A DNA stretch of 64,000 bases from an uncultured Verrucomicrobiales bacterium (GTDB lineage: Bacteria; Verrucomicrobiota; Verrucomicrobiia; Verrucomicrobiales; Akkermansiaceae). The stretch lies in the NCBI GenBank assembly GCA_947039485.1, contig CAMQZC010000001.1:1-64000 (forward strand). The letters are read 5' to 3'. How positions within the stretch are numbered: position 1 is the first letter of the stretch; the number at the start of each line of letters is the position of its first letter. Under the pieces are notes generated by a model. That model saw only the letters and a list, made by a program, of their open reading frames with translations. It did not search any database and had not been told where the DNA came from. Below, piece by piece: positions 5,583-64,000 of this stretch. A program made the position numbers and the translations under genes.

Positions 5583-5611
5583 ATCCTATCATGACCGCAG
5601 GCGACTCACAA
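5583..5611 (-). promoter_or_regulatory. promoter of the CPBP-thiL operon
   Basis: On the minus strand: -35 TTGTGA (5606-5611), 17-bp spacer, -10 TAGGAT (5583-5588). It ends 9 bases before the ATG at 5573, so the leader should be about 3 nt. It is divergent from the promoter at 5632-5660. Confidence 0.6.
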
Positions 5612-5631
5612 GTCTAAAGCCCCTTTTGGGC

Positions 5632-5660
5632 TTGCAAATCAGGGGCTGAGACGCTATGCT
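5632..5660 (+). promoter_or_regulatory. promoter giving a near-leaderless transcript
   Basis: -35 TTGCAA (5632-5637), 17-bp spacer, -10 TATGCT (5655-5660). The -10 overlaps the upstream in-frame ATG at 5656, so the usable start is the ATG at 5668, one base past the predicted transcription start. Confidence 0.6.
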
Positions 5661-5667
5661 TCACGAG

Positions 5668-6564
5668 ATGAATTTACGCGATAAACTCCACGAGATACTC
5701 CCTAGCCTCTTACCCAAGAGTGAGGCTGAGTCCATCAAGGGCAAGGAGCTCATCGCGCGCGTGCGTGCTGTGCTGGGGGATGACTACTCCGATCAGAGCC
5801 TGCGCTCACAGTTCTCCTTCCTCGTGCTCGATGACCTCTCCTGCCTCGCGCGTGTTGAGAATGGTCAGGGCTACTACCTACGCTCCGAGGAGGAGGCTAC
5901 CAGCTCACTACACCGTATGTTTGAGGCTGCGAGCAGCCCTGAGGCTAATGACCCCTATCGCAAGGCTCTCGCACTGGCTGTGCGACTCTACGATACCGCG
6001 GGTCTCGGCGCCTTTGTCTACCCAGTGGAGGAGGATGAGTCATGGGCGCATCCTGATGTGGTTGCCGTGCACTGGCCAGCTGGACGCTGGGAGGATGGTG
6101 CCTATATTTTTGAAGGAGATGATCTGCAGGCGAGTTACTGCTCTGTCTGCGTGGCAGTGGCTGATAGTGATGAGAGCTGCCGGCGTGCCTTTTTCCGCGC
6201 TCTGGCCTGCGGTGGCTGGTCGCAGCAGGCTGAGTTGCTGTTGCTGGGGATTGACGAGTTGCCTGAGGAGGAGCTCGCCCAGCTGGCTGCTCGCTATGGT
6301 GTGGGGGTGCGTTGCATTGAGCTGGATCAAGAGATTTTGGATAGCTTAGCTGCGGCCGATACTATCTTCCGCGCCTCGGCCACAGAGGCTCGCGCGCTCA
6401 TTGAGCAGCTGCCCCAGCGCAGCATTGCCGCGGCACGCCACAAGGCGATGCAGCTGCCTCAGTCGGGGACGCGCCCCGATATTGATGCCTTGCTTGGCTG
6501 GGCTGAGAGCTGCCTTGCCAAGGGTCGTGTCGAGAGCTACGAGCTGCGCGTTGCCGTTAATTAA
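5668..6564 (+). CDS. uncharacterised protein, possibly HTH plus nuclease-like fold (COG2958-like)
   Basis: A cytosolic protein of 298 residues that I do not recognise with certainty. The N-terminal 75 residues look like a winged-helix module (alternating helices, then LVLDDLSCLARVENGQGYYL, which reads like a wing). The middle part contains WAHPDVVAVHWP, resembling the PDVVGV-type segment of COG2958 proteins, which have an HTH domain and a restriction-endonuclease-like fold. The C-terminus is helical and acidic. The start at 5668 is chosen because the promoter -10 covers the earlier ATG at 5656. Its 3' end overlaps the converging gene by 4 bases. The functional assignment is tentative. Confidence 0.7.
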   Translation: MNLRDKLHEILPSLLPKSEAESIKGKELIARVRAVLGDDYSDQSLRSQFSFLVLDDLSCLARVENGQGYYLRSEEEATSSLHRMFEAASSPEANDPYRKALALAVRLYDTAGLGAFVYPVEEDESWAHPDVVAVHWPAGRWEDGAYIFEGDDLQASYCSVCVAVADSDESCRRAFFRALACGGWSQQAELLLLGIDELPEEELAQLAARYGVGVRCIELDQEILDSLAAADTIFRASATEARALIEQLPQRSIAAARHKAMQLPQSGTRPDIDALLGWAESCLAKGRVESYELRVAVN

Positions 6565-7472
6565 AAGCTGCTGCGTCGCAGGGGGCTATCCTGAGCCTTG
6601 AGGTAGGCCGCAACCCCTGTGCGTGGGTAGCGCAGATCATTGTGCACATATTGCTTTAGCAGGCGCAGGGCGCGCTGCTCAGAGCCAAAGATTTCCTTAA
6701 CGCTCATCCTCTCATTAGCAGGGGGGGCGAGCTTGTTTTGCAGGGCAAAGAGCAGGCAGCAGAGCGAGGGTACGCGCTGAGCTGGGTCTGCAAAGAGCTT
6801 GCGCCCGAGCACCCACGCCTCCTGCTCTCGACCGCGGATGCGGCAGAGACTGTAGAACTGCATGCGCTCGTATACGGAGCTTGCGCCGTGCTCAACGGCC
6901 GCTTTGTAGGCCTCTGCAGCCTTGCTAAACTCTGGGTAGCGATGGATGTTGGCGTGATGATCACCCAGCCTTGCATAAATCAATGCGCTGCTGGGATTGT
7001 TGGCAATGCCATCACGCAGGAATTGCTCCGCGCGATGGATGTAGTAGCGCATGCTGCGCGCACGCTCATCGGCAGGCAGATCATGCTGGGAGTTGATATC
7101 GCCAGCAGCATTGCTCGACATGTCATTAGCCGCAGCTGTCCAAAATTGCTCTCGCTTGGGGCAGAGCGTGGACATCTGCTCATAGCGCAGCTCAAGTCGA
7201 GTCCAGTCGCGGGTCGACCAAGCGGCCGTGGCATCGAGCGAGAGAATCTCTGCTGCGATGGCGCGCAGTCCACCGAGGCTAAAGAAGGCGAGCTGCTGGG
7301 AGAGCGCATCGCCGCCCTTGATGCTCACCGGGGGCCGAAGAAGATCTTGCTGCTTCATGCGATGCTCGATCGCACGGTTAATGGGCAGCATGGTGAGCCC
7401 AAAGATCGCGCAGGCGATGAGGCTGGTAAGGCCGATGAACCAGCTCTGCTTACAATAGCTTCTCATGCACAT
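6561..7472 (-). CDS. membrane-anchored TPR-like protein of unknown function
   Basis: 303 residues. A single N-terminal hydrophobic segment (about residues 10-30) anchors the protein, and the rest is alpha-helical. The segment NPSSALIYARLGDHHANIHRYPEFSKAAEAYKAAVEHGAS has the spacing of a tetratricopeptide repeat (quoted only to mark residues about 160-200). No catalytic motif is visible. It lies 2 bases downstream of the PanE-like reductase gene and is probably cotranscribed with it. TPR proteins usually scaffold other proteins; the partner here is unknown. Confidence 0.7.
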   Translation of the reverse strand: MCMRSYCKQSWFIGLTSLIACAIFGLTMLPINRAIEHRMKQQDLLRPPVSIKGGDALSQQLAFFSLGGLRAIAAEILSLDATAAWSTRDWTRLELRYEQMSTLCPKREQFWTAAANDMSSNAAGDINSQHDLPADERARSMRYYIHRAEQFLRDGIANNPSSALIYARLGDHHANIHRYPEFSKAAEAYKAAVEHGASSVYERMQFYSLCRIRGREQEAWVLGRKLFADPAQRVPSLCCLLFALQNKLAPPANERMSVKEIFGSEQRALRLLKQYVHNDLRYPRTGVAAYLKAQDSPLRRSSF

Positions 7473-7474
7473 CC

Positions 7475-8392
7475 TTAGCTCTGAGCCAATCGCTCGCGGA
7501 TATCAGCTGCAAGTTGCTCCCAGACCGGGACAGGGCAGTTGATTTCATGGGCTTTTTCTAAGCAGATACCCCAGATTGCGGGGTACTCAACGGGACGTCC
7601 TTTATTATAGTCGACAGCAGAGCTAGGGATAAACTCGCCCATTTTACTGGTGCGCTCAAACTGCTTCTCTACGATGTCATCGGGCATGGGATAGCCGCGC
7701 ATCTGTGAGCAGAGATAGACCTCCTCCATGATGCTGCGGGCACGCTGCACCTGCTCGGGCATGGTGAAGAGCTTCTTGATGCTAATACCACCCAGCGCAA
7801 GGCAGAGTCCGTTGAAGGGGATGTTCCAGCCAAGCTTGTGCCAGAGTATCTGCTCGGCCTGCTCAAAGGCGCGGCAGCGGATATTGGCATGGTTGAACAT
7901 GGCGCTGAGGCTCTCTGCCATTGCCATGCTTTGTTCACTGAGCTTGCTGGGGGCAATCTGCACATCATTGCCTCCTGTGTGCCCAATCTTGCCCGGGCTC
8001 TCCATCATGCAGCAGATAAAGCACAGCGCGATAAAGATGCGCTCAGGATCGACAATCTCGGCGATAGCCGCATCATTGCCCATGCCATTCTGCATGGTCA
8101 TCACCACGCTCTTGCTGTGGAGTAGGGGGGGGAGGGCTGTTGCGAGGATTGCGTTGTTGGTGCTCTTGAGGCAGACGAGCACGAGCTCGACAGGACCGCA
8201 GTCCTCAGGGCTGCAAAAGACCTGTGGATGCTCAAGATGTTGCAAGACACCATTGCTCATGACATCAAGTCCATGCTCGCGCGTAGGCTCATAGGCTGAG
8301 CGCATGATAAAGGATACATCCTCTCCAGCTTGGGCGAGCTGCATACCATAGTAACAACCTAGTGCACCAGCTCCTAATATCGCTATTTTCAT
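7475..8392 (-). CDS. ketopantoate reductase family protein (2-dehydropantoate 2-reductase-like)
   Basis: PanE-type enzymes reduce ketopantoate to pantoate with NADPH in pantothenate/CoA synthesis. The 305-residue protein starts with a Rossmann motif, KIAILGAGALGCYYG. It has VCLKSTNN (family lysine) and MTMQNGMGND, and in the C-terminal helical domain WHKLGWNIPFNGLCL with the conserved Lys/Asn pattern. Many paralogues in this family act on other 2-keto acids, so the exact substrate is not certain. The start is supported by a promoter that ends 7 bases before the ATG. The downstream TPR-like gene follows after 2 bases. Confidence 0.85.
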   Translation of the reverse strand: MKIAILGAGALGCYYGMQLAQAGEDVSFIMRSAYEPTREHGLDVMSNGVLQHLEHPQVFCSPEDCGPVELVLVCLKSTNNAILATALPPLLHSKSVVMTMQNGMGNDAAIAEIVDPERIFIALCFICCMMESPGKIGHTGGNDVQIAPSKLSEQSMAMAESLSAMFNHANIRCRAFEQAEQILWHKLGWNIPFNGLCLALGGISIKKLFTMPEQVQRARSIMEEVYLCSQMRGYPMPDDIVEKQFERTSKMGEFIPSSAVDYNKGRPVEYPAIWGICLEKAHEINCPVPVWEQLAADIRERLAQS

Positions 8393-8399
8393 GCCAGAG

Positions 8400-8428
8400 A
8401 GCTTAGCATGTGGAGGCTCTCATGGCAA
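8400..8428 (-). promoter_or_regulatory. promoter of the PanE-like gene, near-leaderless
   Basis: Minus strand: -35 TTGCCA (8423-8428), 17-bp spacer, -10 TAAGCT (8400-8405), 7 bases before the ATG at 8392. Predicted leader about 1 nt. Confidence 0.6.
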
Positions 8429-15472: not shown

Positions 15473-16483
15473 TTAAAGAATGGGTGAGCTAGGGATATCC
15501 TCCTTGATAGGGGCGAAAAGTCCTTTGATAGGAGGAATTTTTTCGATGAGTCCTGTGCTCAGTGAGTCGAGGGCTAGCTTTTCAATAGCGGCGGTGTCCA
15601 GCTCGCTATCTAGCGTGAGGCGAGACCAAGCTCTGCGGATGAGCGTAGGGTCAATGCTGCTCTGGGTGAGCTCCTCGAGCTCGTCGATGACCATCAGCTG
15701 GGCGGCCTCAGGGTTGGCTATAATCCATTCGGTGAGCTCACGGTGGGCGCGGACGAGGCTCTGGGCTAGCTTGGGGTTGCGGCTCAGCCATGCGCGGCGC
15801 GCGGCGAGTAGTGTGGTGCAGGCATTGGGCTCGTTGATGTAGATGCGCGCGTGCGCGCTCTCCTCAAGTTGGGTGACCCAAGGCTCAACTGTCCAGCTCG
15901 CTTGAATAGCGCCTTGGCTCATGAGCTGAGCCTGCATGGATTTGGGTGTGGGGGAGATGCGCACATCGCCCTCGCCCTCCAGTGTCCAGCTGAGTTGATG
16001 CTCTGTGAGCCATGCGCGGCAGGTGATGTCCTGCGTATTGCCAAGCTGAGGGCTGGCAATATTGAGCCCCTTGAAGTCCTTGGGCTCATCAATATCGATG
16101 CCTGGAGCTATCACGAGGGCGGCGCCGCCTTTGACAGCACCTGCGATGAGGCGCACTTCCTCACCGTTGGAGGCAGCGTAGGCATTGATGACGGGGCTGG
16201 GACCTACGTAGGTCACATCAACTGTGCTACCAAAGAGCGCCTCCATGGAGCTGGGACCTGCGCTGTAGAGATACCACTCAATGCGCTGCTCTGGCAGGTA
16301 GCGCTCAAACCAGCCTTCCCCGCGGCGGCTCATGTTGCGAGCTACGAGGGCGTGCAGATGCGTCATGGTGGGGAAATGACCGATACGCACAACGCTACTA
16401 TCCTCCTTGGGGCTGCAAGAATGGAGACTCAAGGGGGCGAGTAATGCAATGGCTGCTAGAACGAGGGAAGCACGACGAATCAT
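15473..16483 (-). CDS. ABC transporter substrate-binding lipoprotein (SsuA/TauA/NMT1-like)
   Basis: 336 residues starting at the ATG 16483. A signal peptide ends in LSLHSC, a lipobox with Cys at residue 23, so the protein is lipid-anchored. The mature part starts RIGHFPTMTHLHALVA and has VDVTYVGPSPVINAY, the ligand-pocket pattern of periplasmic NitT/TauT binding proteins, and SPQLGNTQDITCRAWL. The frame is open to 16519, but a promoter whose -10 (16491-16496) lies inside that extension makes 16483 the only usable start. The ligand is unknown; the pocket motifs resemble sulfonate/taurine binders. Confidence 0.88.
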   Translation of the reverse strand: MIRRASLVLAAIALLAPLSLHSCSPKEDSSVVRIGHFPTMTHLHALVARNMSRRGEGWFERYLPEQRIEWYLYSAGPSSMEALFGSTVDVTYVGPSPVINAYAASNGEEVRLIAGAVKGGAALVIAPGIDIDEPKDFKGLNIASPQLGNTQDITCRAWLTEHQLSWTLEGEGDVRISPTPKSMQAQLMSQGAIQASWTVEPWVTQLEESAHARIYINEPNACTTLLAARRAWLSRNPKLAQSLVRAHRELTEWIIANPEAAQLMVIDELEELTQSSIDPTLIRRAWSRLTLDSELDTAAIEKLALDSLSTGLIEKIPPIKGLFAPIKEDIPSSPIL

Positions 16484-16490
16484 GACCACT

Positions 16491-16519
16491 AATCTAGCAT
16501 TCTTTCGCGTTTTCGTCAA
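16491..16519 (-). promoter_or_regulatory. promoter of the NitT/TauT ABC operon, near-leaderless
   Basis: Minus strand: -35 TTGACG (16514-16519), 17-bp spacer, -10 TAGATT (16491-16496), 7 bases before the ATG at 16483. It excludes the longer reading-frame start. Confidence 0.65.
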
Positions 16520-16600: not shown

Positions 16601-16629
16601 TTGCAATTGCAAAATCCAAGATGTAGGAT
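16601..16629 (+). promoter_or_regulatory. promoter of the RppH-like gene, short leader
   Basis: -35 TTGCAA (16601-16606), 17-bp spacer, -10 TAGGAT (16624-16629), 10 bases before the ATG at 16640. Predicted leader about 4 nt. The upstream TTG at 16601 is part of the -35 and not a start codon. Confidence 0.6.
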
Positions 16630-16639
16630 AGGCTCCGTT

Positions 16640-17116
16640 ATGAGTGATGAAAAACTTTACCGCCTCAATGCGGCCGCGATTTATATGCGCCCAGATGGTA
16701 GGATACTAGTCTGTGAGCGCGTCAAGCCACGCGGCAGCTGGCAGTTCCCCCAAGGTGGGGTCAAGAGCGATGAGCCCCCTGTCGATGCGGCCATGCGCGA
16801 GGGCATGGAGGAGACGGGACTACGCCCCAATGAGCTTGAGCTTGCTGGTGAGTATGGTCCCTATCACTATGACTATGATGAGAAAAATGCCGCACGAGTC
16901 TTTGCCAAGCGCAACATTGCCTATGCAGGTCAGCTCCAGCACTACTTCCTCTTCAAACTCAAGTCCATGGACTCTGAGCCATGGCTTGATCAATGTGAGT
17001 TCTGCGACTTTCGCTGGATCAAGCCCGAGGAGATGGATTTTAGCGCCATCCCCGATTTCAAGCTGCCCGTCTACCGTCAGTTGATGGCAGATGTCTTTGG
17101 CGTTGGCAAATCTTAA
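16640..17116 (+). CDS. rppH: Nudix hydrolase, RNA pyrophosphohydrolase RppH-like
   Basis: 158 residues. The Nudix box is complete: Gly, five residues, Glu (SDE), seven residues, REGMEETGL. It is preceded by GSWQFPQGG, the RppH/diadenosine-polyphosphatase pattern. RppH removes pyrophosphate from the 5' triphosphate end of mRNA and triggers decay; paralogues hydrolyse Ap4A. The start is ATG 16640. It is followed after 11 bases by trmO and then the serine hydrolase, likely one transcript. In an organism with so many leaderless mRNAs, 5'-end processing is of special interest, though that link is inference. Confidence 0.85.
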   Translation: MSDEKLYRLNAAAIYMRPDGRILVCERVKPRGSWQFPQGGVKSDEPPVDAAMREGMEETGLRPNELELAGEYGPYHYDYDEKNAARVFAKRNIAYAGQLQHYFLFKLKSMDSEPWLDQCEFCDFRWIKPEEMDFSAIPDFKLPVYRQLMADVFGVGKS

Positions 17117-22535: not shown

Positions 22536-22544
22536 AACTGCAGT

Positions 22545-22573
22545 ATTTTAGCTTCTTTGGACAGGAACTGCCA
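22545..22573 (-). promoter_or_regulatory. promoter of fumarase, short leader
   Basis: Minus strand: -10 TAAAAT (22545-22550), 17-bp spacer, weak -35 TGGCAG (22568-22573). The -10 ends 9 bases before the ATG at 22535; predicted leader about 3 nt. Confidence 0.5.
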
Positions 22574-22738: not shown

Positions 22739-22767
22739 TTGCCCCCCCCAAGCTCATTTGTTATAGT
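22739..22767 (+). promoter_or_regulatory. promoter giving a leaderless transcript with a 13-codon first frame
   Basis: -35 TTGCCC (22739-22744), 17-bp spacer, -10 TATAGT (22762-22767). The ATG at 22774 falls exactly on the predicted transcription start. The spacer contains a run of C. Confidence 0.55.
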
Positions 22768-22773
22768 GAGGAG

Positions 22774-22815
22774 ATGAATAGTTCGAAGAAGAAGTTTGCG
22801 TGCCTTCTTGGCTGA
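22774..22815 (+). CDS. 13-residue leader peptide frame, possibly coupled to the downstream gene
   Basis: ATG at 22774 opens a short frame (MNSSKKKFACLLG) ending in TGA at 22813-22815. The A of this stop is also the A of the next ATG (TGATG), the arrangement used for termination-reinitiation. The alternative is that this is the true N-terminus of the membrane protein and a frameshift (natural or sequencing error) separates the two. Confidence 0.4.
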   Translation: MNSSKKKFACLLG

Positions 22816-38066: not shown

Positions 38067-38074
38067 ATTTGCGC

Positions 38075-40587: not shown

Positions 40588-40594
40588 GCGTTCT

Positions 40595-40693: not shown

Positions 40694-40699
40694 TATCAC

Positions 40700-40963
40700 A
40701 TGAACGCACTAGCCAATCTCGGTTCTCCTATGCAATGGTTTATCCTCATCGCTATCTGCTTGGTTGTCTTTGGCGCCAAGCGTCTCCCCGACGTAGCTCG
40801 CGGCATCGGTAAGAGCCTCGGCGAGTTTAAGAAGGCCCGCAAGGAATTTGAAGATGAGCTCATGACAAGCCAACATGAGGATACCGTAAAGAAAGAAATC
40901 AAGTATCAAGACGTCGATAATGTGACTGTCGATGAAGCACCTAAGAAAAAGGATGACGCTTAA
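40700..40963 (+). CDS. tatA: twin-arginine translocase subunit TatA/TatE
   Basis: Forms the pore of the Tat system that exports folded proteins across the inner membrane. 87 residues: a short periplasmic N-terminus, one helix (QWFILIAICLVVFG), the FGAKRLPDVARGIGKSLGEF amphipathic hinge typical of TatA, and a charged Lys/Asp/Glu tail. The frame is open to 40661, but the promoter fixes the start at 40700. The Tat-type leader of the DUF1501 protein at 29643-31007 is a likely client. tatC is not in this window. Confidence 0.93.
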   Translation: MNALANLGSPMQWFILIAICLVVFGAKRLPDVARGIGKSLGEFKKARKEFEDELMTSQHEDTVKKEIKYQDVDNVTVDEAPKKKDDA

Positions 40964-46671: not shown

Positions 46672-48858
46672 TTAAAGGGGCTTTTTTGCAGGAAGGGGCT
46701 GAAGTTGTAGAGGTGCTTCAAGTTTGCAGGGGCCGCAGTGCTTTTGAATAAAGAGGTGACCATCGTGTTTGCCTTGGTAGTCGCCCTGCTTAATCATGCG
46801 ATTATTGCGGAAGAAGATGTTTTTTGATGACTCTGCGTAGAGCAGGGGAACCGCGTGCGTGGTGAAGATGTTGTCTTCAATGACGATGTTTTGATGGTAG
46901 GGCGTTTCATCTGGACTATGCTTGCTAATCTGAGGAATAATGCTGATGATACCCTCGCAGAATTGATAGCTTGAGGTCAGGTTGTGATCAAAGCGGTTGC
47001 GGCGGATGAGCATATCAAGGCAGCGACCTGTTTCATACCAACCTTGCGCATCACCTGCCAGTAGGATGGCGCTGCCGCTGCAGTAGTAGAAATGGTTGTC
47101 CTCGATGAGGACTGGACGGGGTGTGTTAAAGAGCGCTCCGCGAGCGCGGTTGTAGCGGACGGTGTTGTGGTGGAAGTGGACAGAGGGGTACCAGTCTGCA
47201 TTCTCCCATGCATCACCGACGCTGACACCTGCTGGTAGAGGCTCATTGAGGGTGACGCGTAGCTGCGTCTCGCTGAGCTTCTCAACATGCTGGGCAAGTA
47301 CGCTCTGAGGGACATGCTCCATGGTCTTCGCCTTGATGAATTGAAGGCGCTCACCAGCCAAAAGGACTTCAAAGCCGACGGCTTGGGGATGTTTGTAGCT
47401 GCAAAGAAATTGCGTGGGGCTGATAATCTCGTCTATTTGTAGGGCGGTGGAGTGGACGTTAATCGCATCATCCATCATACCCTCATAGGTGGCGTGGAGC
47501 ACACGTATATGGCCTCGGCAGTTGGAGAAATGGGTGGCATCGGCTGATGAGGTGTGCATGCGCTTATCTGAGCGCAGGCAGCCACCGCCTGTGATGCTGA
47601 TATCATCGCAGCGCTGCGCCAGAAAGGCCATGCCCTGAGAGTCATGAAAGAAGACATTATTGAGCTGGATGTTCTTGCTGCGGTAAGCGAGCATCGCGGG
47701 GCGTGGTCGCGCGTAGTTGCGCAACACGAGTACATCGCCGGCGCTGAGGCCTAGCTCTCGTGTGTCGCTGTTAAACTTAACGCTGTTCTTATCTACCTTT
47801 GTGGCAGCACTTGACCAGGGGATGTCACCTATATTACCCAGTGCCGCAATGCGACCATTTGACTTGTAGGCTATTGCGTGGTTAACGCGGCGAGATGTGC
47901 CATCGGAGTTGATTTCAAAATGACCGTCCTTGAGTTGCCATGCGTGAACCTTGCTGGGAATCTCAAGAATTGTCTCATTGCTGTGGTTGGAGACGATGGT
48001 GCCCTCAATACACCAAGGCTGATGATGGGTGATGTGGATATTCTCAATGATGGTATCGCGGCTATCCATGATGAGAAAGGGCATGGTGTTGTCGTGAAAG
48101 ACGAATGTCGAGCCCTGACCATCCAAGATAAAGAGTTTTTTCACATCCACGATAGGGATAGCTACGGCCTGCATGTCTTGCTGGTCATGGTTGGAGATGT
48201 AGACGCTCATATCCTTGGAGCTCTTGGGGTAAAAATGGTACTCTCCCTTTTCCAGTGTGATGAGGCAGCTTCCCGCATGGGTGCGTGCCTTGGTGATAAG
48301 CTTGCGTAGGGCGACGCTAGCGCATTTTTTTCCGGGGCGCAGACCATGGTTTTTAGCCTTGATGACGAGCTCACCTGCGGCCTTGGTTTTGCTCGCTGTG
48401 GCTTTCTCATCAATACCCCAGCGCATGTTGCCCCAAGCGATGTTGTTCGCTGTGGTGCTCAGTAGATAGATATGGTTGCTCCCCTTGGGGATACTTACGC
48501 TAAAGCTCTCACCAGCATTGCCCTGCCAGAGTGTCTCAGAGCCTGACAGGATGCGGAATGGTGCCCCTTCTCCCTCAGGAGCGCTACCCTTAACTTTGCT
48601 CATGCCTGTAGGCACGCTCGCAGGGATCATGCGACGCCCCCTCATTAGCAAGCCGTCAGCCATGGAGTAAACCCCAGGATGCACGATGTCTCGCAGTGTG
48701 TTCTTTTTATCTGTGGGGATGCCGATAACTTTTGCCGTTGGATCGGGGGAATTGAGCAGGGGGGCGAGACCCGAAGGTAGAGGAGCGAGGTTAGGAGCTT
48801 GAGCATAGCTGAGCGCAGGGATGATGGTGATGCTGAGCGCGAGGAGTGGTTTAAGCAT
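46672..48858 (-). CDS. GH110-like alpha-galactosidase, secreted parallel beta-helix enzyme
   Basis: 728 residues. Signal peptide (about residues 1-20, ALSYA before QAPN). Residues about 60-150 resemble an NPCBM-type carbohydrate-binding fold (GNAGESFSVSIPKGSNHIYLL). The main part is a right-handed beta-helix with SADATHFSNCRGHI (D440) and EGMMDDAINVHS (D463-D464), the conserved acidic motifs of GH110 alpha-1,3-galactosidases, which remove terminal galactose from blood-group B and linear alpha-Gal epitopes. Its promoter is leaderless. Together with the amino-sugar salvage genes it points to host glycan use. Exact linkage specificity cannot be read. Confidence 0.83.
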   Translation of the reverse strand: MLKPLLALSITIIPALSYAQAPNLAPLPSGLAPLLNSPDPTAKVIGIPTDKKNTLRDIVHPGVYSMADGLLMRGRRMIPASVPTGMSKVKGSAPEGEGAPFRILSGSETLWQGNAGESFSVSIPKGSNHIYLLSTTANNIAWGNMRWGIDEKATASKTKAAGELVIKAKNHGLRPGKKCASVALRKLITKARTHAGSCLITLEKGEYHFYPKSSKDMSVYISNHDQQDMQAVAIPIVDVKKLFILDGQGSTFVFHDNTMPFLIMDSRDTIIENIHITHHQPWCIEGTIVSNHSNETILEIPSKVHAWQLKDGHFEINSDGTSRRVNHAIAYKSNGRIAALGNIGDIPWSSAATKVDKNSVKFNSDTRELGLSAGDVLVLRNYARPRPAMLAYRSKNIQLNNVFFHDSQGMAFLAQRCDDISITGGGCLRSDKRMHTSSADATHFSNCRGHIRVLHATYEGMMDDAINVHSTALQIDEIISPTQFLCSYKHPQAVGFEVLLAGERLQFIKAKTMEHVPQSVLAQHVEKLSETQLRVTLNEPLPAGVSVGDAWENADWYPSVHFHHNTVRYNRARGALFNTPRPVLIEDNHFYYCSGSAILLAGDAQGWYETGRCLDMLIRRNRFDHNLTSSYQFCEGIISIIPQISKHSPDETPYHQNIVIEDNIFTTHAVPLLYAESSKNIFFRNNRMIKQGDYQGKHDGHLFIQKHCGPCKLEAPLQLQPLPAKKPL

Positions 48859-48864
48859 GATAAT

Positions 48865-48894
48865 ATTCTAACATATACGCCGCCACTCTGGCAA
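48865..48894 (-). promoter_or_regulatory. promoter of the GH110-like gene, leaderless
   Basis: Minus strand: -35 TTGCCA (48889-48894), 18-bp spacer, -10 TAGAAT (48865-48870), 6 bases before the ATG at 48858. Confidence 0.65.
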
Positions 48895-48966
48895 GTATGA
48901 AGATGTTGACATGACGGTTAGCTAACACTTCTTGCATGTGATGATTTCTTCGGGCAAACTATCCTC

Positions 48967-49461
48967 ATGAAAGAAGAAATCATTTCCGCATTAAACGAGC
49001 AAATACGCTTCGAGTTCGACTCCGCCTTTCTCTATCTATCCTTCTCCGTCGATTTACGTCAGTATGGTCTACGAGGTGCAGGGCATTGGATGCGTCTGCA
49101 GTATCATGAGGAGTGTGCCCATGCTCTCAAGATAGCAGATTACCTTGAGAGTATGGGAGCTGGTGTCATTATCCCTCAGGTGAAGAGGCATAGCTATAGC
49201 TGGAAAAAGCCCCTTGATCTCTTTGAGATGTCTCTATCTCATGAGCACAAGGTGAGCTCTGCCATCAATGATTTGATGAGTATGGTGCATGAGTATCAGG
49301 ATTATGCGAGTCAAGAGATGCTTTTCTACTTTGTTCGTGAGCAAATTGAGGAGGAGCGTAGCCTTGTAGATATTATCGCAAGGCTCAATCTCTGCGGAGA
49401 TAGTGGAGAGGCTCTATTGCATGTGGATGCGGACCTGCTCAAGCGCCCTGTAGAGGATTGA
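48967..49461 (+). CDS. ftnA: bacterial non-heme ferritin
   Basis: Oxidises Fe(II) and stores it inside a 24-subunit shell in the cytosol. 164 residues forming a four-helix bundle. Ferroxidase ligands are recognisable: Glu17 in EFDSAFLYLS, Glu50 and His53 in YHEECAH, Glu94 in LSHEHK region, and the E-rich REQIEEERSLVD helix. No Shine-Dalgarno sequence precedes the ATG; a TTGACA at 48906-48911 lacks a good -10. It is divergent from the GH110-like gene. Confidence 0.93.
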   Translation: MKEEIISALNEQIRFEFDSAFLYLSFSVDLRQYGLRGAGHWMRLQYHEECAHALKIADYLESMGAGVIIPQVKRHSYSWKKPLDLFEMSLSHEHKVSSAINDLMSMVHEYQDYASQEMLFYFVREQIEEERSLVDIIARLNLCGDSGEALLHVDADLLKRPVED

Positions 49462-51958: not shown

Positions 51959-53812
51959 TTAGCTTAGCGCCTCCTCAATGCGGAGGTTGCGGATGATGTA
52001 TTGCTTACGCTCATCGCTGTTGTCTCCCATGTAGAAGCGCAGCAGCTCCTTGACGTTGTGAGCGTGACCGAGGCTCACCTTGTCGAGGCGGATATTATCA
52101 CCGATGAAGTTAGTGAACTCAGAGGGTGAAATTTCACCTAGTCCCTTGAATCGTGTAATTTCGGGGTTAGTGCCTAGTTCCTTGATGGCCTTGACTCGCT
52201 CATCCTCAGAGTAGCAGTAGATGGTTTTCTTCTTGTTGCGCACGCGGAAGAGGGGCGTTTGTAGGATGTAGAGATGCTCCTCTAGGATGAGCTCCTTGAA
52301 GTACTGGATGAAGAAGGTGAGCAGCAGTAGACGGATGTGCATGCCGTCCACGTCAGCATCAGTAGCAATGATGATTTTGTTGTAGCGCAGATCATCGATG
52401 CTCTTGTCGATGTTGAGCGCGATGTGGAGGAAGTCGAGCTCCTCATTGCGGTTCTGCTCAAAGAGCGCGGCGCGGCTCATGCCAAAGCAGTTGGCTGGCT
52501 TGCCTCGCAGGGAGAACACCGCTTGAGTCTCGGCATCACGCGCGGTGGTGATGGAGCCAGAGGCTGAGTCTCCTTCTGTGATAAAGAGCATGGTTTCTTG
52601 CGCGCGCTTGTGCTTGGTGTTGTAATGAGCGCGGCAGTCACGCAGCTTCTTGGTGTGAATCTTTGCCTTCTTAGCGCGCTCCTTAGCAACCTTGCCCGTG
52701 ATACCTGCGACCTCCTTGCGGGTCTTCTCATTCTCCTTGATTTTCTCCTCAATAGCGTTGGCAATCTCAGGGTTGCGGTGCAGGTAGTTATCCAGCTCGC
52801 GACCCAAGAAGTTGCTGACAAATGTACGCACGGTTTCCTTGCCAGGCCCCATGGTGTTGCTGCCCAGCTTGGTCTTGGTCTGTGACTCAAAGATGGGCTC
52901 AATCACCTTGATGCTAATAGCGGCCTCAACGCAGCTGCGGCAGTCACTTGCCTCGTAGCTCTTTTTGTAAAATGCCTGGAGGCTCTTAGCAATGGCTTCC
53001 TTAAAGGCACTCTGATGCGTGCCGCCCATGGTTGTGTGCTGACCATTGACAAAGGAGTAGTAGGACTCGCCATAGGCTCCGCTATGGGTGAGCGCAATCT
53101 CAATATCATCTCCGTTGAGGTGGATGGGTGTATAGATGGGCTCGCCCTCCATCTCCTCATTGAGTAGGTCGAGGAGTCCATGTTGAGAGACGATGCGCTC
53201 GCCGTTGAAGCGGATGCTCATGCCCTTGTTGAGGTAGCAGTAGTAGCGGCACATGCGCTGGACAATCTCGGGGATGAAGAGGGCATTCTCAGCGAAGAGC
53301 GTGCGGTCAATCATGAAGCTTACGCGCGTGCCGTTGGACTCGGTAGTATCCTCGCTGATGTCGCTGCCCTCGACCTCGATACCTTTTTGGAATTTGATGC
53401 GGCGCGTCTTGCCCTCACGGTAGGCCTGAATATCAAACTCTGAGGAGAGGGCGTTGACCGCCTTGATACCTACACCATTGAGACCGACTGATTTTTTGAA
53501 GGCTTCGCCATCGTACTTGCCGCCTGTGTTGATTTTAGCGGCGCATTCAAAGAGCTTGCCAAGGGGGATGCCGCGGCCGTAGTCGCGTATCTCGCAGCGG
53601 CCATCTTTCTTGATATTGACTGTGATTCGGTTGCCCTTGCCCATGACAAACTCGTCAATTGAGTTATCCATCACCTCCTTGAGCAGCACGTAAACACCAT
53701 CATCGGGCATGCTGCCATCGCCTAGCTTGCCGATGTACATACCGGGGCGCAGGCGAATGTGCTCGCGCCAGTCAAGGGTTTGAATTGCGTCTTCGGTGTA
53801 TTGGGCTTCCAT
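51959..53812 (-). CDS. parE: type IIA topoisomerase ATPase subunit, ParE-like
   Basis: 617 residues. GHKL ATPase domain with [18 protein letters not shown] and [14 protein letters not shown]; transducer domain with [15 protein letters not shown] with [11 protein letters not shown] and [16 protein letters not shown]-terminal [12 protein letters not shown]. It lacks the large insertion of enterobacterial GyrB and is ParE-sized. Chromosome decatenation subunit; the partner ParC is not in the window. Start ATG 53812 follows a -10 TATCAT by 9 bases. Confidence 0.9.
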
Positions 53813-53821
53813 GTTGCGGAG

Positions 53822-53850
53822 ATGATAGCAGTTTGGTGCAGCGATAGCAA
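53822..53850 (-). promoter_or_regulatory. promoter of parE, short leader
   Basis: Minus strand: -35 TTGCTA (53845-53850), 17-bp spacer, -10 TATCAT (53822-53827), 9 bases before the ATG at 53812. Predicted leader about 3 nt. Confidence 0.65.
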
Positions 53851-54201: not shown

Positions 54202-55575
54202 TCAGAGTCCCATTTTGTCGGGGTTGAGGATGCCCAATGGGTCGAGGGCTGACTTGATCTGCTGGTGCAGCTCAAAGGCATTGCTGCCAATGGCACCCTC
54301 AAACCAAGGAGCCTTGGCGATGCCAATGCCGTGCTCACCGGTGATGCTGCCACCGCGTGCTAGTACCCAGGCAAAGAGCTCGTGCACGAGAGCCTCGGCC
54401 TCCGCACGTCTCTCATTACCTTTCGCATCCAGAGGTATCATGATGTTGCTGTGGATGTTGCCATCCCCTGAGTGGCCAAAGCAGGCGATGGGGATATCAT
54501 GGGTCTGCTGGAGCTGGCTGCAGAAGTCGACGAGCTCCACAAGGGCGGAGCGTGGGATGACGATGTCCTCATTGAGCTTGGTGAGTCCTGTGGCGCGCAG
54601 GCTGGCGGAGAACTCTCGTCGCAACTGCCAGATGCGCTCGATGTCTTCGGGCTCCGTGGCGCTCATGGCATTGATGCTACCGCAGGACTGAAGGATGCTC
54701 ATGATGCTGGGCAGCTCCTCCTTGATGGCGCGCTCTTGCCCATCAATCTCGACGATGATATGCCCCTGCATGCCCGCTGGCATGGCATCGGCTCCGAGGT
54801 GCTTGCGTGCTGCCTCTAGGGTGAAGGCATCGGTGATCTCCATCGCTGCTGGCAGGTGCCCTGCTTGGAGGATGTCTTGCACAGCCTTGGCGGCTAAGGC
54901 AAAGTCGGGGAAGAATGCTTGGATAGCCGCACGTGCTGGTGGGGTCGGGATGATGCGCAGGGTGGCCTCAGTGATGATGCCTAGCATGCCCTCGGAGCCG
55001 CAGAAGAGTCCCACGAGGTCAAAGCCCTGCTTGTTCTTGTGCGTGCGTCCGCCACAGCGCACGATGCGCCCATCGGCGAGGACGACGGTGAGACCGAGGA
55101 CGTAGTTACGCGTGACTCCGTATTTGAGGCATCGAGGACCGCCTGCGTTGGTGGCGATGTTGCCGCCAATGCTCGACTCCTTGCGTGATGCTGGATCAGG
55201 GGGGTAGAACCAACCTAGCTCAGCTGCGGCATCTTGGATGTCTGCGGTGAGGCAGCCTGCTTCTACTCTAGCAATACCATCGGCTGGATTGAGCTCAATG
55301 ATGCGCGTCATGGGGGCGAGAGAGATGACGAGACCGCCGCGGCTGGGGACGCAGCCGCCCACATAGCCGACACCTGCACCGCGCGCGGTGACGGGGACGT
55401 TGTATTTGCTAGCAATGCGCATCGCCTCGGAGATTTGCTCGGTCGTAGATGCAAGTAACACCGCGTCGGGGAGATGGCTTGCAAACCATTTATCGCCAGC
55501 GTGGGCGAGTAGGCAGGCCTCATCGCAGTGGATGGAGTCGCCTAGGGTAGATGTGAGTTCGTCAATCCAGTTCAT
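54202..55575 (-). CDS. glcD: FAD-linked oxidase, glycolate oxidase subunit GlcD-like
   Basis: 457 residues from ATG 55575. N-terminal FAD-binding PCMH domain with VPVTARGAGVGYVGGCVPS, SIGGNIATNAGGPRCLKYG and YVLGLTVVLADG, then the FAD-oxidase C domain with ACFGHSGDGNIHSNIM and SITGEHGIGIAKAPW. Oxidises 2-hydroxy acids (glycolate, lactate). GlcE/GlcF partners are absent nearby, so it may be a single-subunit D-2-hydroxyacid dehydrogenase. The frame is open to 55620; 55575 fits the family start, with TTGACA and a weak -10 upstream. Confidence 0.88.
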   Translation of the reverse strand: MNWIDELTSTLGDSIHCDEACLLAHAGDKWFASHLPDAVLLASTTEQISEAMRIASKYNVPVTARGAGVGYVGGCVPSRGGLVISLAPMTRIIELNPADGIARVEAGCLTADIQDAAAELGWFYPPDPASRKESSIGGNIATNAGGPRCLKYGVTRNYVLGLTVVLADGRIVRCGGRTHKNKQGFDLVGLFCGSEGMLGIITEATLRIIPTPPARAAIQAFFPDFALAAKAVQDILQAGHLPAAMEITDAFTLEAARKHLGADAMPAGMQGHIIVEIDGQERAIKEELPSIMSILQSCGSINAMSATEPEDIERIWQLRREFSASLRATGLTKLNEDIVIPRSALVELVDFCSQLQQTHDIPIACFGHSGDGNIHSNIMIPLDAKGNERRAEAEALVHELFAWVLARGGSITGEHGIGIAKAPWFEGAIGSNAFELHQQIKSALDPLGILNPDKMGL

Positions 55576-55894
55576 GGCATGATATTCCCACGTGCTTGGC
55601 ATTTTGTCAAGCCTTGCCATGACTGCAGATGCCTAGTCTTGAAGAATAGCTCGACTGCCTCGATGCTGAGGCGGGGTAGAGGGTGTGACTGAATGGGGGG
55701 TATGTTACGGTTCTTGTGTAGATGCGTTAGGCTTAGGCTTGATTTTTATCGAGGTGATTCACTAATATTATATCGAGATGCCAAGTGAGGCTGTGCCTAT
55801 TGAGTGTGAGAAGGTTGTTGCTTGATTGCTCGTGATTGATGTCAGTTTGCTTATTTTCACTTAGTGAAGCTGTGTATTTGCTTGTGTCTACGGC
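55576..55894. other. glcD-dapF divergent gap, no gene seen
   Basis: About 320 bases without a convincing gene. A minus-strand TTGACA near 55603 probably belongs to a glcD promoter. A 15-codon frame at 55778-55825 follows a TATTAT by 6 bases, but its -35 is poor. A 13-base palindrome TTCACTTAGTGAA lies near 55856-55868. No RNA gene recognised. Confidence 0.5.
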
Positions 55895-55923
55895 TTGCCT
55901 TGTGGGGCGGGCTGTGATAGAAT
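55895..55923 (+). promoter_or_regulatory. promoter of dapF-aroK, short leader
   Basis: -35 TTGCCT (55895-55900), 17-bp spacer, -10 TAGAAT (55918-55923), 9 bases before the ATG at 55933. Predicted leader about 3 nt. Confidence 0.65.
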
Positions 55924-55932
55924 AGTTTTGTT

Positions 55933-56757
55933 ATGATGCTTTCTTTTTACAAGATGACGGGTGCTGGCAATGATTTTGTCATGCTGGATAATCGCGATCT
56001 CTCACTGAGTGATATCTTGACTCGTGATCATATTGCCTCGCTTTGCGATCGCCGCTTCGGTATTGGTGCTGATGGCTTGATTGCTGTTGAGCCAGCCGAG
56101 GCTGATGGTGATGCGCGTATGCGCTACTACAATTCTGATGGTGGTGAGGCTGAGATGTGCGGCAATGGTGCGCGCTGCTTCACCGCTTTTGTTGATTACC
56201 TGATTGAGGATGGTATTGCTGAGCTGAAGTTTGAGACGAAGGCTGGTATGGTGAAGGGCTGGGTCAATGATGATGACACGGTGACCATTCAGCTGACAAA
56301 GCCCCATGGCTTGAATCTCAATGCGATGGCTCCTACTCCTGAGCTTGCTGCTCCTGTGCATTTTATCAATACAGGTGTGCCTCATGCGGTGGCCTTTGTT
56401 GATGATGTCAATGTGATTGATATCAAACCACAGGGGGCTTTCCTGCGCAATAATGAGGCATTTGCCCCTGCTGGCACGAATGCAAACTTTGCTCAAGTCA
56501 TTGCTGCTAATCACCTGCAGCTGCGCACCTATGAGCGCGGTGTTGAGGATGAGACTCTGGCCTGTGGTACAGGGATGACGGCTGCGGCTCTGCTGCATGC
56601 TATCTTGACTGATGCTCCATCTCCCATTTTTGTTGATGTGGCTGGTGGTGATACACTTTCCATTGGCTTTAAGCGCAAGGGTGATAATTTTAGCGATGTG
56701 ACGCTGACGGGGCCTGCACTGATCACCTTCCGAGGTGAGGTCATTCTCCCAGAATAA
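55933..56757 (+). CDS. dapF: diaminopimelate epimerase
   Basis: Converts LL- to meso-diaminopimelate for lysine and peptidoglycan. 274 residues. Both catalytic cysteines are visible: GGEAEMCGNGARCF in the N-terminal half and EDETLACGTGMTAAAL in the C-terminal half. The start FYKMTGAGNDFVMLDNRD is typical. Two adjacent ATGs (55933 and 55936). aroK follows after 6 bases, so the two form an operon. Confidence 0.95.
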   Translation: MMLSFYKMTGAGNDFVMLDNRDLSLSDILTRDHIASLCDRRFGIGADGLIAVEPAEADGDARMRYYNSDGGEAEMCGNGARCFTAFVDYLIEDGIAELKFETKAGMVKGWVNDDDTVTIQLTKPHGLNLNAMAPTPELAAPVHFINTGVPHAVAFVDDVNVIDIKPQGAFLRNNEAFAPAGTNANFAQVIAANHLQLRTYERGVEDETLACGTGMTAAALLHAILTDAPSPIFVDVAGGDTLSIGFKRKGDNFSDVTLTGPALITFRGEVILPE

Positions 56758-61362: not shown

Positions 61363-61391
61363 TTGCCTGCTCGCCTTTTTTCTGATACAAT
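61363..61391 (+). promoter_or_regulatory. promoter of the VanX-like gene, near-leaderless GTG start
   Basis: -35 TTGCCT (61363-61368), 17-bp spacer, -10 TACAAT (61386-61391), 7 bases before GTG 61399. Confidence 0.6.
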
Positions 61392-61398
61392 TATTCGC

Positions 61399-62133
61399 GT
61401 GTTATCCCTGATGTCTCGATGTTTGTTGCTGCCTTTATCTACGTTCCTCTTATCTCACTGTGCCGCCCCAGTCCTCGTTGCTACCCTGCCACCCCAGCTC
61501 TGCTTTGTGGATGAAATTGCGCCTAACGTTAAGGTTGATTTGATGTATAGTGGGTCTGATAATTTTGTGGGTCGTCCCATCGCTGGCTATAGTGGAAAGC
61601 GGGCTGTGCTGCGCTACGATACGGCAGCCGCTCTCAAGTTAGCCTCTGAGGAGTTTGCATCAATGGGATATTGCGTGCTGCTCAAGGATGCCTACCGTCC
61701 TTGTCGTGCTCTGGATGATATCTTCGCGTGGTCGCTCACCGATAATCATCGTATGCAGTCGCGCTACTACCCTCGTATCAGCAAGTCGCGCATCCATGCC
61801 GATAAGTACATCGGCAAAGTCTCTGAGCATAGCTGGGGGGTAGCCATGGATATTACGTTGCTGGATGCTAGGACTGGGCAGGAGCTTGATTTGGGGGGTA
61901 GAGTTGATATGCTCGATGATATGTCCGCTACTGAATATCAGGGTAGCCTTATCTCAAAGCAGGCGCATGAGAATCGCATGATGCTGCGCTCAGTGATGGC
62001 GAAGTTTGGCTTTCGTAATTACAGTAAGGAGTGGTGGCACTACTGGCTTAGCCCGGTGGAAAATCCTATCATGAGCTATGATTTTGCGCTGGATGATAGC
62101 ATGCAGAGTGCTCCTTTCTCCAACCGTTATTGA
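61399..62133 (+). CDS. D-alanyl-D-alanine dipeptidase, VanX/DdpX family
   Basis: 244 residues starting with GTG 61399 (ATG 61411 is the alternative). A hydrophobic leader ends LLSHC, a lipobox-like site with an atypical His at -1. The zinc dipeptidase core is complete: YSGSDNFVGRPIAGY, LKDAYRPCRA, SEHSWGVAMD (SxHxxGxxxD) and KEWWHYWL. It hydrolyses D-Ala-D-Ala or related dipeptides. Without vanH/vanA next to it, a role in cell-wall peptide recycling rather than vancomycin resistance is more likely. The long frame to 61363 would start inside the -35. Confidence 0.87.
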   Translation: MLSLMSRCLLLPLSTFLLSHCAAPVLVATLPPQLCFVDEIAPNVKVDLMYSGSDNFVGRPIAGYSGKRAVLRYDTAAALKLASEEFASMGYCVLLKDAYRPCRALDDIFAWSLTDNHRMQSRYYPRISKSRIHADKYIGKVSEHSWGVAMDITLLDARTGQELDLGGRVDMLDDMSATEYQGSLISKQAHENRMMLRSVMAKFGFRNYSKEWWHYWLSPVENPIMSYDFALDDSMQSAPFSNRY

Positions 62134-62670: not shown

Positions 62671-63540
62671 TTATTTGCTCTTTTTGTCGGGAGCAGGGTA
62701 AACCTCGGCCACGGCAGAGATGATCTCTGGCAGGTTCTTGGCTATGCGGCTCTCCACGCGCTTGCGCAGCTCAGGCATGGCTGATGGGTCGATTTTGTCC
62801 ATGCCGTTGTATGTCTTGGCGAGGGTGCAGATGAAATGCTCTGTCCACTTCTTATTAAAGCGAGGCTTAGAGAGCATTTTGCTCAGCTCGGGGAGAGTCT
62901 TGCCGATGTTGTAGGCATCACCACCCATGATAAAGACCTCGTGGAAGGTAGCTGAGGATTCATTCTTGCGGAAGAATCCCTTGTCCTTCTCTCGCTGATG
63001 GACGATGCAGCCCACTACCACGTTGATGAGCCTACCCTCATAGCGGCCTGAGTAGACGAGGCTGAGCTGGTCGATACTACACTCGACCTTCTTGCCAAGT
63101 TTGTTGGCGAGCACATCGCGCTTTTCTAAGTAATCACGGGTATCATCACTGACGGGTGATAGGTAAGCGATGTTGAGCTTGAGATCGCTGACATGAGCCT
63201 TGATTTGAGACTTGAGGGCAGGGAGCAGGAGCTCTGATATCTCCTCCGCATCGCGGGTCAGACCCTTGCTTGGGGTCTCAAAGCGAGAAAAGACAAAAGC
63301 ACGTAACTTGAGCTTTTTGTTGAGCATGCTCAGTTGACGTGAGCAGGTGTTACCCTCAAGTTGAGGGTGTTTTTTCCAGAGAATGCTACCTTGACCCTCC
63401 CAACCACCGGGCAGATCGTAGCTAGTTGCAGTCATCTTGTTATCAGCATCCCTGATGACAATCTTGGCCTCTGCAAGCTGCGCACATGCGAGGATGGCGC
63501 AGAGGCTGATGGGTAAGGATAAAAGGGGGAAATATTTCAT
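62671..63540 (-). CDS. secreted protein of unknown function
   Basis: 289 residues with a signal peptide (cleavage after AQLAEA) and an alpha/beta body. Recognisable features are only general: a Cys in GNTCSRQLSML, Cys in ECSIDQLSLVYSGRYEG and VVVGCIVHQREKD, and a Lys-rich C-terminus. The pattern LINVVVGCIVHQ reads as a core strand. I know no family for it. A canonical TTGACA promoter ends 8 bases before the ATG. Confidence 0.7.
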   Translation of the reverse strand: MKYFPLLSLPISLCAILACAQLAEAKIVIRDADNKMTATSYDLPGGWEGQGSILWKKHPQLEGNTCSRQLSMLNKKLKLRAFVFSRFETPSKGLTRDAEEISELLLPALKSQIKAHVSDLKLNIAYLSPVSDDTRDYLEKRDVLANKLGKKVECSIDQLSLVYSGRYEGRLINVVVGCIVHQREKDKGFFRKNESSATFHEVFIMGGDAYNIGKTLPELSKMLSKPRFNKKWTEHFICTLAKTYNGMDKIDPSAMPELRKRVESRIAKNLPEIISAVAEVYPAPDKKSK

Positions 63541-63548
63541 ACATAACC

Positions 63549-63577
63549 ATTCTCTCCTAAATGCTATCTGCTGTCAA
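63549..63577 (-). promoter_or_regulatory. promoter of the secreted protein gene, near-leaderless
   Basis: Minus strand: -35 TTGACA (63572-63577), 17-bp spacer, -10 GAGAAT (63549-63554), 8 bases before the ATG at 63540. Confidence 0.6.
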
Positions 63578-63612
63578 TATCAAAGCGCGCCACTGACATG
63601 CTCTGAATAAGG

Positions 63613-63641
63613 TTGACAGTCTCGGGCATTTAGGCTAAGCT
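63613..63641 (+). promoter_or_regulatory. promoter of the rlmI-like gene, short leader
   Basis: -35 TTGACA (63613-63618), 17-bp spacer, -10 TAAGCT (63636-63641), 9 bases before the ATG at 63651. Confidence 0.6.
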
Positions 63642-63650
63642 CTCCGCACT

Positions 63651-64000
63651 ATGGCAGGTCTTATTATTGCGCCCAAGGCGCGCATCTTTCACGGTCACGA
63701 CTGGGTATACGGTACCGAAGTTAAAGCTGTTTTTGGCAACCCCGCACCTGGAGATGTCGTGCTGCTCAAGGATCAGCGCGATCGTTATCTTGGCTCAGCA
63801 ATGTATAATCCTAACAGTCAGATTATTGCTCGTCGCTTCTCGCGCCGTAAGCAAGATTTGGATCGCGATTTCTTCGTCCGTCGCATCTCCCAAGCAGTGA
63901 CCCTGCGTGAGCGCTGGATGCGCGATGAGCAGATTATGCGCATCGTCTGGAGTGAGAGTGACGGTCTGCCCGGTCTGATCATCGACCGCTACAATGACGT
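63651..64000 (+). CDS. rlmI: class I SAM-dependent rRNA methyltransferase (RlmI-like), 3' truncated by window edge
   Basis: The 116 visible codons encode an N-terminal PUA domain (LIIAPKARIFHGHDWVYGTE, GDVVLLKDQRDRYLGSAMYN) and the start of the RNase H-like linker (VWSESDGLPGLIIDRYND), the arrangement of RlmI/YccW, which methylates C5 of C1962 in 23S rRNA. The catalytic Rossmann domain lies past the window end. The start is ATG 63651, fixed by a promoter ending 9 bases upstream. Confidence 0.88.
   Translation, partial: MAGLIIAPKARIFHGHDWVYGTEVKAVFGNPAPGDVVLLKDQRDRYLGSAMYNPNSQIIARRFSRRKQDLDRDFFVRRISQAVTLRERWMRDEQIMRIVWSESDGLPGLIIDRYND

Follow-up and report, generated by a model that had tools for sequence, protein, structure and literature searches.

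The window considered here, a stretch of 64,000 nucleotides (nt) from an uncultured Verrucomicrobiales bacterium of the Akkermansiaceae (positions 1 to 64,000 of contig CAMQZC010000001.1, assembly GCA_947039485.1), contains many genes in which a -35/-10 promoter pair lies so close to the start codon that the mRNA would have little or no 5' leader. An earlier note had listed 17 starts at which such a pair, with a 17-18 bp spacer, precedes the start codon by 6-10 nt, and this description holds at every one of them. The gap, defined as the number of nt that separate the -10 hexamer from the start codon, is 6 (n=3), 7 (n=6), 8 (n=2), 9 (n=5) or 10 (n=1), and 16 of the sites have a spacer of 17 bp, the other one of 18 bp. 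The -35 hexamers begin with TTGC in 12 cases and with TTGAC in three, the remaining two being TTGTGA and TGGCAG; the -10 reads TANNNT at 16 of the 17 sites, the exception being the GAGAAT of 63540-. Under the promoter model described below the sites score 6.3-13.0 nats. A Pfam scan of 16 of the 17 products, with the very short open reading frame (ORF) at 22774+ left out, found a family in 13, and an Rfam scan of the window gave no matches.

On the minus strand, TTGTGA-17-TAGGAT (5571..5611; gap 9; score 7.7) precedes the ATG of a CAAX protease (Rce1-like) gene at 4602-5573 (PF02517); TTGCCA-17-TAAGCT (8390..8428; gap 7; 10.2) that of the ketopantoate reductase gene panE/apbA; TTGACG-17-TAGATT (16481..16519; gap 7; 10.6) that of an NMT1-like binding protein (PF13379); and TGGCAG-17-TAAAAT (22533..22573; gap 9; 6.8) that of a fumarate hydratase (PF05681/PF05683). 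Further along the same strand are TTGCTA-17-TAAAAT (40585..40623; gap 7; 12.3), before the ATG of a 62-aa ORF without a Pfam family; TTGCCA-18-TAGAAT (48856..48894; gap 6; 10.7), before a beta-helix/GLAA-B-barrel protein; TTGCTA-17-TATCAT (53810..53850; gap 9; 12.1), before a GyrB/ParE-type topoisomerase with Pfam support; and TTGACA-17-GAGAAT (63538..63577; gap 8; 6.3), before a 289-aa protein without a Pfam family, all three also starting with ATG. The plus strand carries TTGCAA-17-TATGCT (5632..5670; gap 7; 10.3) before ATG 5668, whose product has no Pfam family; TTGCAA-17-TAGGAT (16601..16642; gap 10; 9.4) before the ATG of a Nudix hydrolase (PF00293); TTGCCC-17-TATAGT (22739..22776; gap 6; 10.6) before ATG 22774 of a 13-codon ORF; TTGCTC-17-TATACT (32786..32824; gap 7; 11.0) before the ATG of the pyridoxamine phosphate oxidase gene pdxH, again with a Pfam match; and TTGCCA-17-TACAAT (38038..38077; gap 8; 10.5) before that of a PPIC-type isomerase gene (PF13616). 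Beyond these lie TTGCCA-17-TATCAT (40665..40702; gap 6; 12.8) at ATG 40700 of a TatA/B/E-family gene (PF02416), TTGCCT-17-TAGAAT (55895..55935; gap 9; 13.0) at the ATG of the diaminopimelate epimerase gene dapF (PF01678), TTGCCT-17-TACAAT (61363..61401; gap 7; 10.5) at GTG 61399 of a D-Ala-D-Ala dipeptidase-like (M15) protein (PF01427), and TTGACA-17-TAAGCT (63613..63653; gap 9; 8.8) at the ATG of a PUA-domain protein whose gene runs past the end of the window (PF17785).

When genes were called without regard to motifs, 12 of the 33 promoter-capable genes in the window had a site at gap 6-12, including two that had not been listed earlier: TTGCAT-17-CAAACT (48932..48969, plus strand, gap 6) at ATG 48967 and TTGACA-17-GAATAT (55573..55610, minus strand, gap 6) at ATG 55575. 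Both score at least 6, with the hexamers assigned by eye, and 55575- has a longer in-frame start (55620) upstream of its promoter.

This genome, that of an Akkermansia-like gut bacterium, is available as 38 contigs totalling 2.16 Mb (95% complete), and our analysis covers 1.25 Mb of it, the 64-kb window and 1.19 Mb further. A simple gene caller of our own, based on codon usage and blind to motifs, called 899 genes; 609 were classed as promoter-capable (preceded by a divergently oriented gene, or separated from a same-strand gene by 40 nt or more) and 274 as in-operon (a preceding same-strand gene within 40 nt), with 16 edge genes dropped. The promoter model, which contains no information on position relative to the start, was trained on the 576 promoter-capable genes outside the window, the 33 window genes being excluded; a near site is one at gap 6-12 that reaches a score threshold of 6 nats. 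This training has no bearing on the genes of the window, on the control ATGs or on the model-free count given below, but the count of near sites among all 609 genes is not out-of-sample.

A two-block, position-free expectation-maximization (EM) search of the 609 genes, free to place the site at any position between -100 and +20, arrived at CTTG[AC]C-N17-TGCTATAAT, with an extended -10. Its posterior mass at gaps 6 to 12 was 40.3, 19.3, 16.4, 26.5, 23.6, 12.5 and 12.0; individual positions received no more than 2.6 at gaps 0-5 and between 1.0 and 8.4 at gaps 13-40. At the score threshold, 139 of the 609 genes have a near site; in another 176 every recognised promoter is more distant, and in the remaining 294 no promoter is recognised. 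When each gene is represented by its best-scoring site alone, 137 sites are near, 181 far and 21 closer than gap 6. Near sites precede only 4 of 2508 internal ATGs, with 7 hits among the 274 in-operon genes, and at the same threshold they were found at none of 58 E. coli K-12 genes and at one of 379 in Bacteroidota. A model-free count of TTG plus TANNNT (16-18 bp spacer, gap 6-10) gave 99 matches in the 609 genes where 7.8 were expected (Poisson P 8e-72). The argument of the earlier note that so constant a distance is hard to attribute to chance is thus well founded, and the genome-wide peak in motif-to-start distance that it proposed looking for is present, relative to controls, in the 1.25 of 2.16 Mb covered. 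The best-site counts at gaps 6-12 (36, 18, 17, 23, 23, 11 and 9) hint at leaders of 0 and 3-4 nt with fewer of 1-2 nt, a pattern that is statistically unconvincing. A codon-step preference for gaps 6, 9 and 12, suggested by our first histograms, is likewise no more than a lead, as these counts show no convincing period.

The AT-rich hexamer might conceivably be a signal for translation and not a promoter element at all. AT-rich bias upstream of genes can, according to the available text of Nakagawa (2017, PMC5397173), indicate either a Pribnow box or sites for ribosomal protein S1, and TANNNT alone at gap 6-10 is indeed in excess before in-operon genes, both in this genome (27 vs 9.0 expected) and in Bacteroidota (31 vs 13.9). 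The lone hexamer is therefore not fully specific, a point that also tells against a purely promoter-based account. However, at promoter-capable genes the hexamer is coupled to a -35 at 17 bp and to an extended -10, few in-operon genes are preceded by the complete promoter (the 7 matches in 274 given above), and the model-free count in the 379 promoter-capable Bacteroidota genes is 68 against 63 expected. Moreover, 21 of the 23 tRNA/tmRNA genes have the same promoter in the 150 nt preceding them, compared with 27 of 754 coding 150-mers, which identifies it as the general promoter rather than a signal for translation. Its features are those of a sigma-70 housekeeping promoter: a TTGACA-like -35, a 17-bp spacer and a TATAAT-like -10, found also at stable RNA genes. 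We accordingly give the translation-signal explanation almost no credence.

Where transcription would begin can be estimated from the bases beyond the -10. The base 6 nt past the hexamer is a pyrimidine in 92% of sites at gap 6 (C in 75%), in 81% at gap 9-10 and in 90% at gap 11-12, compared with 65% in the far set, an enrichment that fits a transcript start at +7; the sharp inner edge of the distance peak at gap 6 is likewise what would be expected of a start 7 nt past the -10, on the A of the ATG. The available text of Ettwiller et al. (2016, PMC4782308) reports the pyrimidine-purine rule at transcript starts in all four gut species analysed there, and the leader lengths that we predict are based on it. 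Two details fit less well: purines are not enriched at +7 for gaps 9-10 and 11-12 (54% and 50%), and the pattern moves to +7/+8 at gap 7-8, so that the start may lie 1-2 bases later. The predicted leader is then roughly the gap minus 6, or 1-2 bases less. The 36 sites at gap 6 would accordingly have a leader of 0 nt, the 35 at gap 7-8 probably the same, and the 66 with gaps of 9-12 one of up to 3-6 nt.

On this evidence we consider it very probable that sigma-70-type promoters situated 6-12 nt before the start codon give rise to leaderless or near-leaderless mRNAs in this bacterium, with transcript starts and translation both deduced from the DNA. RNA polymerase would likely start on the A of the ATG at gaps of 6-8 and as much as 3-6 nt ahead of it at gaps of 9-12, and the AUG, at or near the 5' end of the mRNA, would itself be the place where ribosomes load directly. 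Such loading might be by direct 70S binding or be assisted by IF2, both of which are described for leaderless mRNAs elsewhere in the available text of a review (PMC9031893). The earlier note had gone further, proposing initiation on terminal AUG or GUG as a normal mode in this lineage. The leaderless prediction itself stands, but 66 of the 137 best near sites lie at gap 9-12 and would be near-leaderless, not strictly terminal-AUG; "normal mode" has the distance peak in its favor, and the transcript starts measured in A. muciniphila (see below) agree with it, but it applies to only about a quarter of the promoter-capable genes (139/609).

Some of the starts themselves are weak points. The transcript ends in this genome have been derived from sequence and the gene starts from our own simple caller. 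The ORF at 22774+ is only 13 aa long; GTG 61399 has an alternative in-frame ATG (61411) 12 nt downstream; 40700+ has an in-frame upstream ATG at 40670 and 5668+ has one at 5656, inside the -10 TATGCT; and the ORFs of 16483-, 16640+, 38075+ and 61399+ all reach an upstream in-frame TTG. There is also EM mass of 5.3 at gap -2 and 5.4 at gap -5, which we read as starts called too far upstream. In favor of the near-start reading, 21 genes have a called start that falls within the -10 or upstream of it, and in 14 of these an in-frame start codon occurs 6-12 nt past the -10, compared with 0-5 per other 7-nt bin. The pair 5656/5668 exemplifies such an overlooked codon: ATG 5656 was the one picked by the motif-blind caller, yet it would lie outside any transcript from the 5632..5670 promoter. 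Could the far promoters be hidden cases of the same error? At most a minority could, since an in-frame start occurs 6-12 nt past the -10 in 26 of the 181, where other bins contain 8-11; when only ATG is counted, the figures are 16 and 4-6. We have therefore rejected this as a general explanation.

An error in the opposite direction would make the promoters real and the mRNAs leadered, with translation beginning at a later in-frame start, and such codons do exist: 61399+ has the ATG 12 nt on already mentioned and 40700+ has a Met 10 codons on. Nevertheless, the conserved domains begin very near the N-terminus (residue 3 in ApbA/PanE, 5 in DapF and 7 in Nudix), the panE, pdxH and dapF orthologs align from the first residue of the query at all genus loci examined, and the distance peak was obtained on starts called blind to the motif. 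We regard later initiation as very improbable. The start codons of the 137 near genes are ATG in 134 cases and GTG in three.

Alternative promoters are common in bacteria, and the near promoters could be real but of minor importance if a second promoter farther upstream supplied a main, leadered mRNA. A promoter scoring at least 6 does occur at 13-110 nt in 180 of the 609 genes, whether or not they have a near site. However, 176 of these 180 genes lack a near site, and the combination of a near and a second recognised promoter is therefore rare. The divergent pairs 63540-/63651+ (110 bp) and 40587-/40700+ (112 bp) leave little space for a second promoter, and the far-promoter genes have no enrichment of Shine-Dalgarno (SD) motifs (5 vs 6.1 expected) that would favor the translation of leadered forms. 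Dominance of a second promoter thus seems to us improbable, if less so than the alternatives considered above, and leaderless or near-leaderless mRNAs from the near promoters remain our preferred explanation.

The status of SD initiation in this genome was assessed by counting SD 4-mers at gap 4-10, observed against expected. They are depleted, both before promoter-capable genes (22 vs 39.5) and before operon genes (5 vs 27.4). The corresponding counts in E. coli are 27 vs 2.7 and 18 vs 0.7, and promoter-capable genes of a distant member of the phylum (G154) have 26 vs 3.1. With predicted leaders of 0-6 nt there would be no room for an SD motif. Among closer relatives, G004 has 2 vs 9.0 (promoter-capable) and 1 vs 2.2 (operon). 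On the other side of the balance, there is no depletion in G015 (10 vs 10.4 and 9 vs 4.3, respectively) or in the promoter-capable genes of the close loci L001-L015 (11 vs 6.4; operon genes 4 vs 7.0). The 16S gene of this genome is absent from the assembly; the relatives G088, G079, G004 and G015, with one 16S copy each, all have an intact anti-SD tail, GGATCACCTCCTTTCT, which includes CCUCC. Genes for IF3 and bS21 are present. The 20 nt preceding the start of the 274 in-operon genes are G-poor (12%) and A/C-rich, and the base just before the start codon is a pyrimidine in 214 of them.

To place the arrangement phylogenetically we have relied on the names in the sequence records of relatives rather than on a tree. 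The topoisomerase gene is 74-78% identical to 15 loci from metagenome-assembled genomes labelled Akkermansia sp., several of them from ruminant gut and others marked "Lapin" (read as rabbit), and 62-64% identical to those of other Akkermansiaceae/Verrucomicrobiales. Four ortholog genes of our choice (panE, pdxH, topoisomerase and dapF) were compared by their best-scoring site, our own locus included. For panE, 23 of 26 genus loci and none of four order loci have the site at gap 6-7; for pdxH, 22 of 27 genus loci and none of three order loci have it at gap 6, 7 or 9. For the topoisomerase gene, with one too-short locus dropped and L001-L007 examined separately, 45 of the 53 distinct loci have their best site at gap 6-12 and 51 have it at 6-16, the remaining two being Bacteroidota. 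All 15 distinct loci from other Akkermansiaceae/Verrucomicrobiales have it at gap 6-7, with scores of 1.1-4.1 that are below threshold. In L016-L033 (minus L020, L027 and L032) these topoisomerase promoters resemble CTTGAT..-N16-TATTCT, having a 16-bp spacer instead of 17. The family-level gap-6 counts in L016-L033 come mostly from one repeated topoisomerase locus and were not counted as independent.

For wider comparison, EM without fixed position gave no clear promoter on most single relatives (100-200 kb each) and converged on the pooled L001-L015; relatives were therefore scored with a fixed or own-genome-seeded model, together with the model-free count. Near sites at score 6 were found in 9/23 genes of G022, 8/93 of G004, 6/87 of G015, 2/26 of G079, 2/68 of G041 and 1/60 of G039. 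The simple TANNNT peak is significant in G022, G004, G079, G041 (12 vs 2.6) and G039 (10 vs 2.4), the last two being order relatives from other families; at the phylum level, G104 has a nominal excess (5 vs 1.5, P 0.019) and G154 has 6 vs 2.8 (P 0.064). A small systematic ortholog check, in which family pairs were scored at the own-genome threshold, found the near site kept in 4 of 5 pairs with G022 and in 9 of 16 pairs with close Akkermansia loci (2 of 5 distinct genes).

Conservation is far from uniform, and a good part of the comparative evidence runs counter to a genus-wide arrangement. There is no near promoter at panE and pdxH in G004, G015 and G017, nor at pdxH in G001 and G003. The TANNNT peak is not significant in G015 (P 0.16) or in four class-level genomes. 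The ortholog check is thin and mixed, the site being kept in 3/8 pairs with G015, 0/2 with G004 and 0/2 at the order level, and 0 of 15 family-level pairs (2 distinct genes) have a near site. For dapF, just 3 of 15 genus loci have a near site, and the best promoter is at gap 24 in G004 and G017 (L246 and L245); judging from these loci, dapF seems to vary within the genus between a near-leaderless form and one with a leader of about 18 nt. By such counts, the predicted near-start arrangement is strongest in this genome's own branch.

A more ambitious interpretation would be that this branch has largely given up SD initiation, with leaders of 0-6 nt as the main start mode for the first genes of transcripts (139 of the 315 with a recognised promoter) and with the anti-SD tail left intact in the genus. 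The gap would then be under selection across much of the genus, more weakly in the order, and more strongly here than in the G004/G015 branch. We put this forward tentatively, as possible rather than probable.

Two observations in the window lie apart from this argument. The TGA of the 13-codon ORF (22774-22815, plus strand) overlaps, as TGATG, the ATG of a longer ORF (22815-23270) of about 150 aa that is apparently hydrophobic, and the region 22774-23270 could possibly encode a leaderless leader peptide with translational coupling, or else a frameshifted gene. On the minus strand, 46672-48858 joins GLAA-B beta-barrel and beta-helix domains in one protein, which is plausibly a glycan-degrading enzyme.

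Akkermansia is a major gut symbiont and a candidate therapeutic. If the prediction is true for a quarter of its promoter-proximal genes, leader-based regulation, such as by riboswitches or by small RNA pairing at SD sites, would be excluded there; expression vectors might have to join promoter and ATG directly, with no ribosome-binding site between them; and start codons would be misplaced by gene callers, as with the ATG 5656 inside a -10 box. An SD-depleted genome in a genus with intact anti-SD tails would also be a natural test of why the 16S tail is retained.

The closest precedent comes from A. muciniphila itself, in which Cappable-seq of mouse caecum found 10% of 886 transcription start sites (TSS) to be leaderless, at annotated starts (Ettwiller et al. 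2016, PMC4782308, available text). The likeness is plain: the lineage is the same, and there too leaderless transcripts have -35/-10 promoters. The difference, going by the same text, is that the 10% is a share of TSS lying exactly at the start, whereas ours is a sequence-predicted share of genes (139/609) in another species, and the near-leaderless class of 3-6 nt predicted here falls outside a count that takes only TSS at the start itself. Our literature search, which reached few subscription journals, had no further Akkermansia transcript-start study among the matches listed, and the available text of a 2011 computational survey of leaderless bacteria (PMC3160421) contains neither Verrucomicrobia nor Akkermansia. 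Akkermansia is listed as SD-scarce with a conserved CCUCC in the available text of PMC10783764, which describes the similar state of SD-scarce Bacteroidota, with an intact 16S anti-SD tail and little use of SD. The Bacteroidota loci that we tested differ in having no peak at gap 6-10 in promoter-capable genes and a broad A/T excess in in-operon genes.

Mycobacteria retain SD initiation for many genes besides their leaderless ones, whereas SD motifs are depleted in the genome analysed here. Leaderless genes are a large minority in Mycobacterium and Deinococcus as well, their share being put above 20% and as high as 60% of genes in the available text of a review (PMC9031893). The "-10 region adjacent to ORFs" of Deinococcus-Thermus is another parallel, since, in the available text of PMC12340547, it too lies just before the start, yields leaderless mRNA and depends on distance; that phylum is a different one, and the consensus found here includes a -35 at 17 bp. 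Because leaderless TSS had previously been measured in A. muciniphila (PMC4782308, available text), the arrangement predicted here is a new and broader, sequence-based instance of a known phenomenon.

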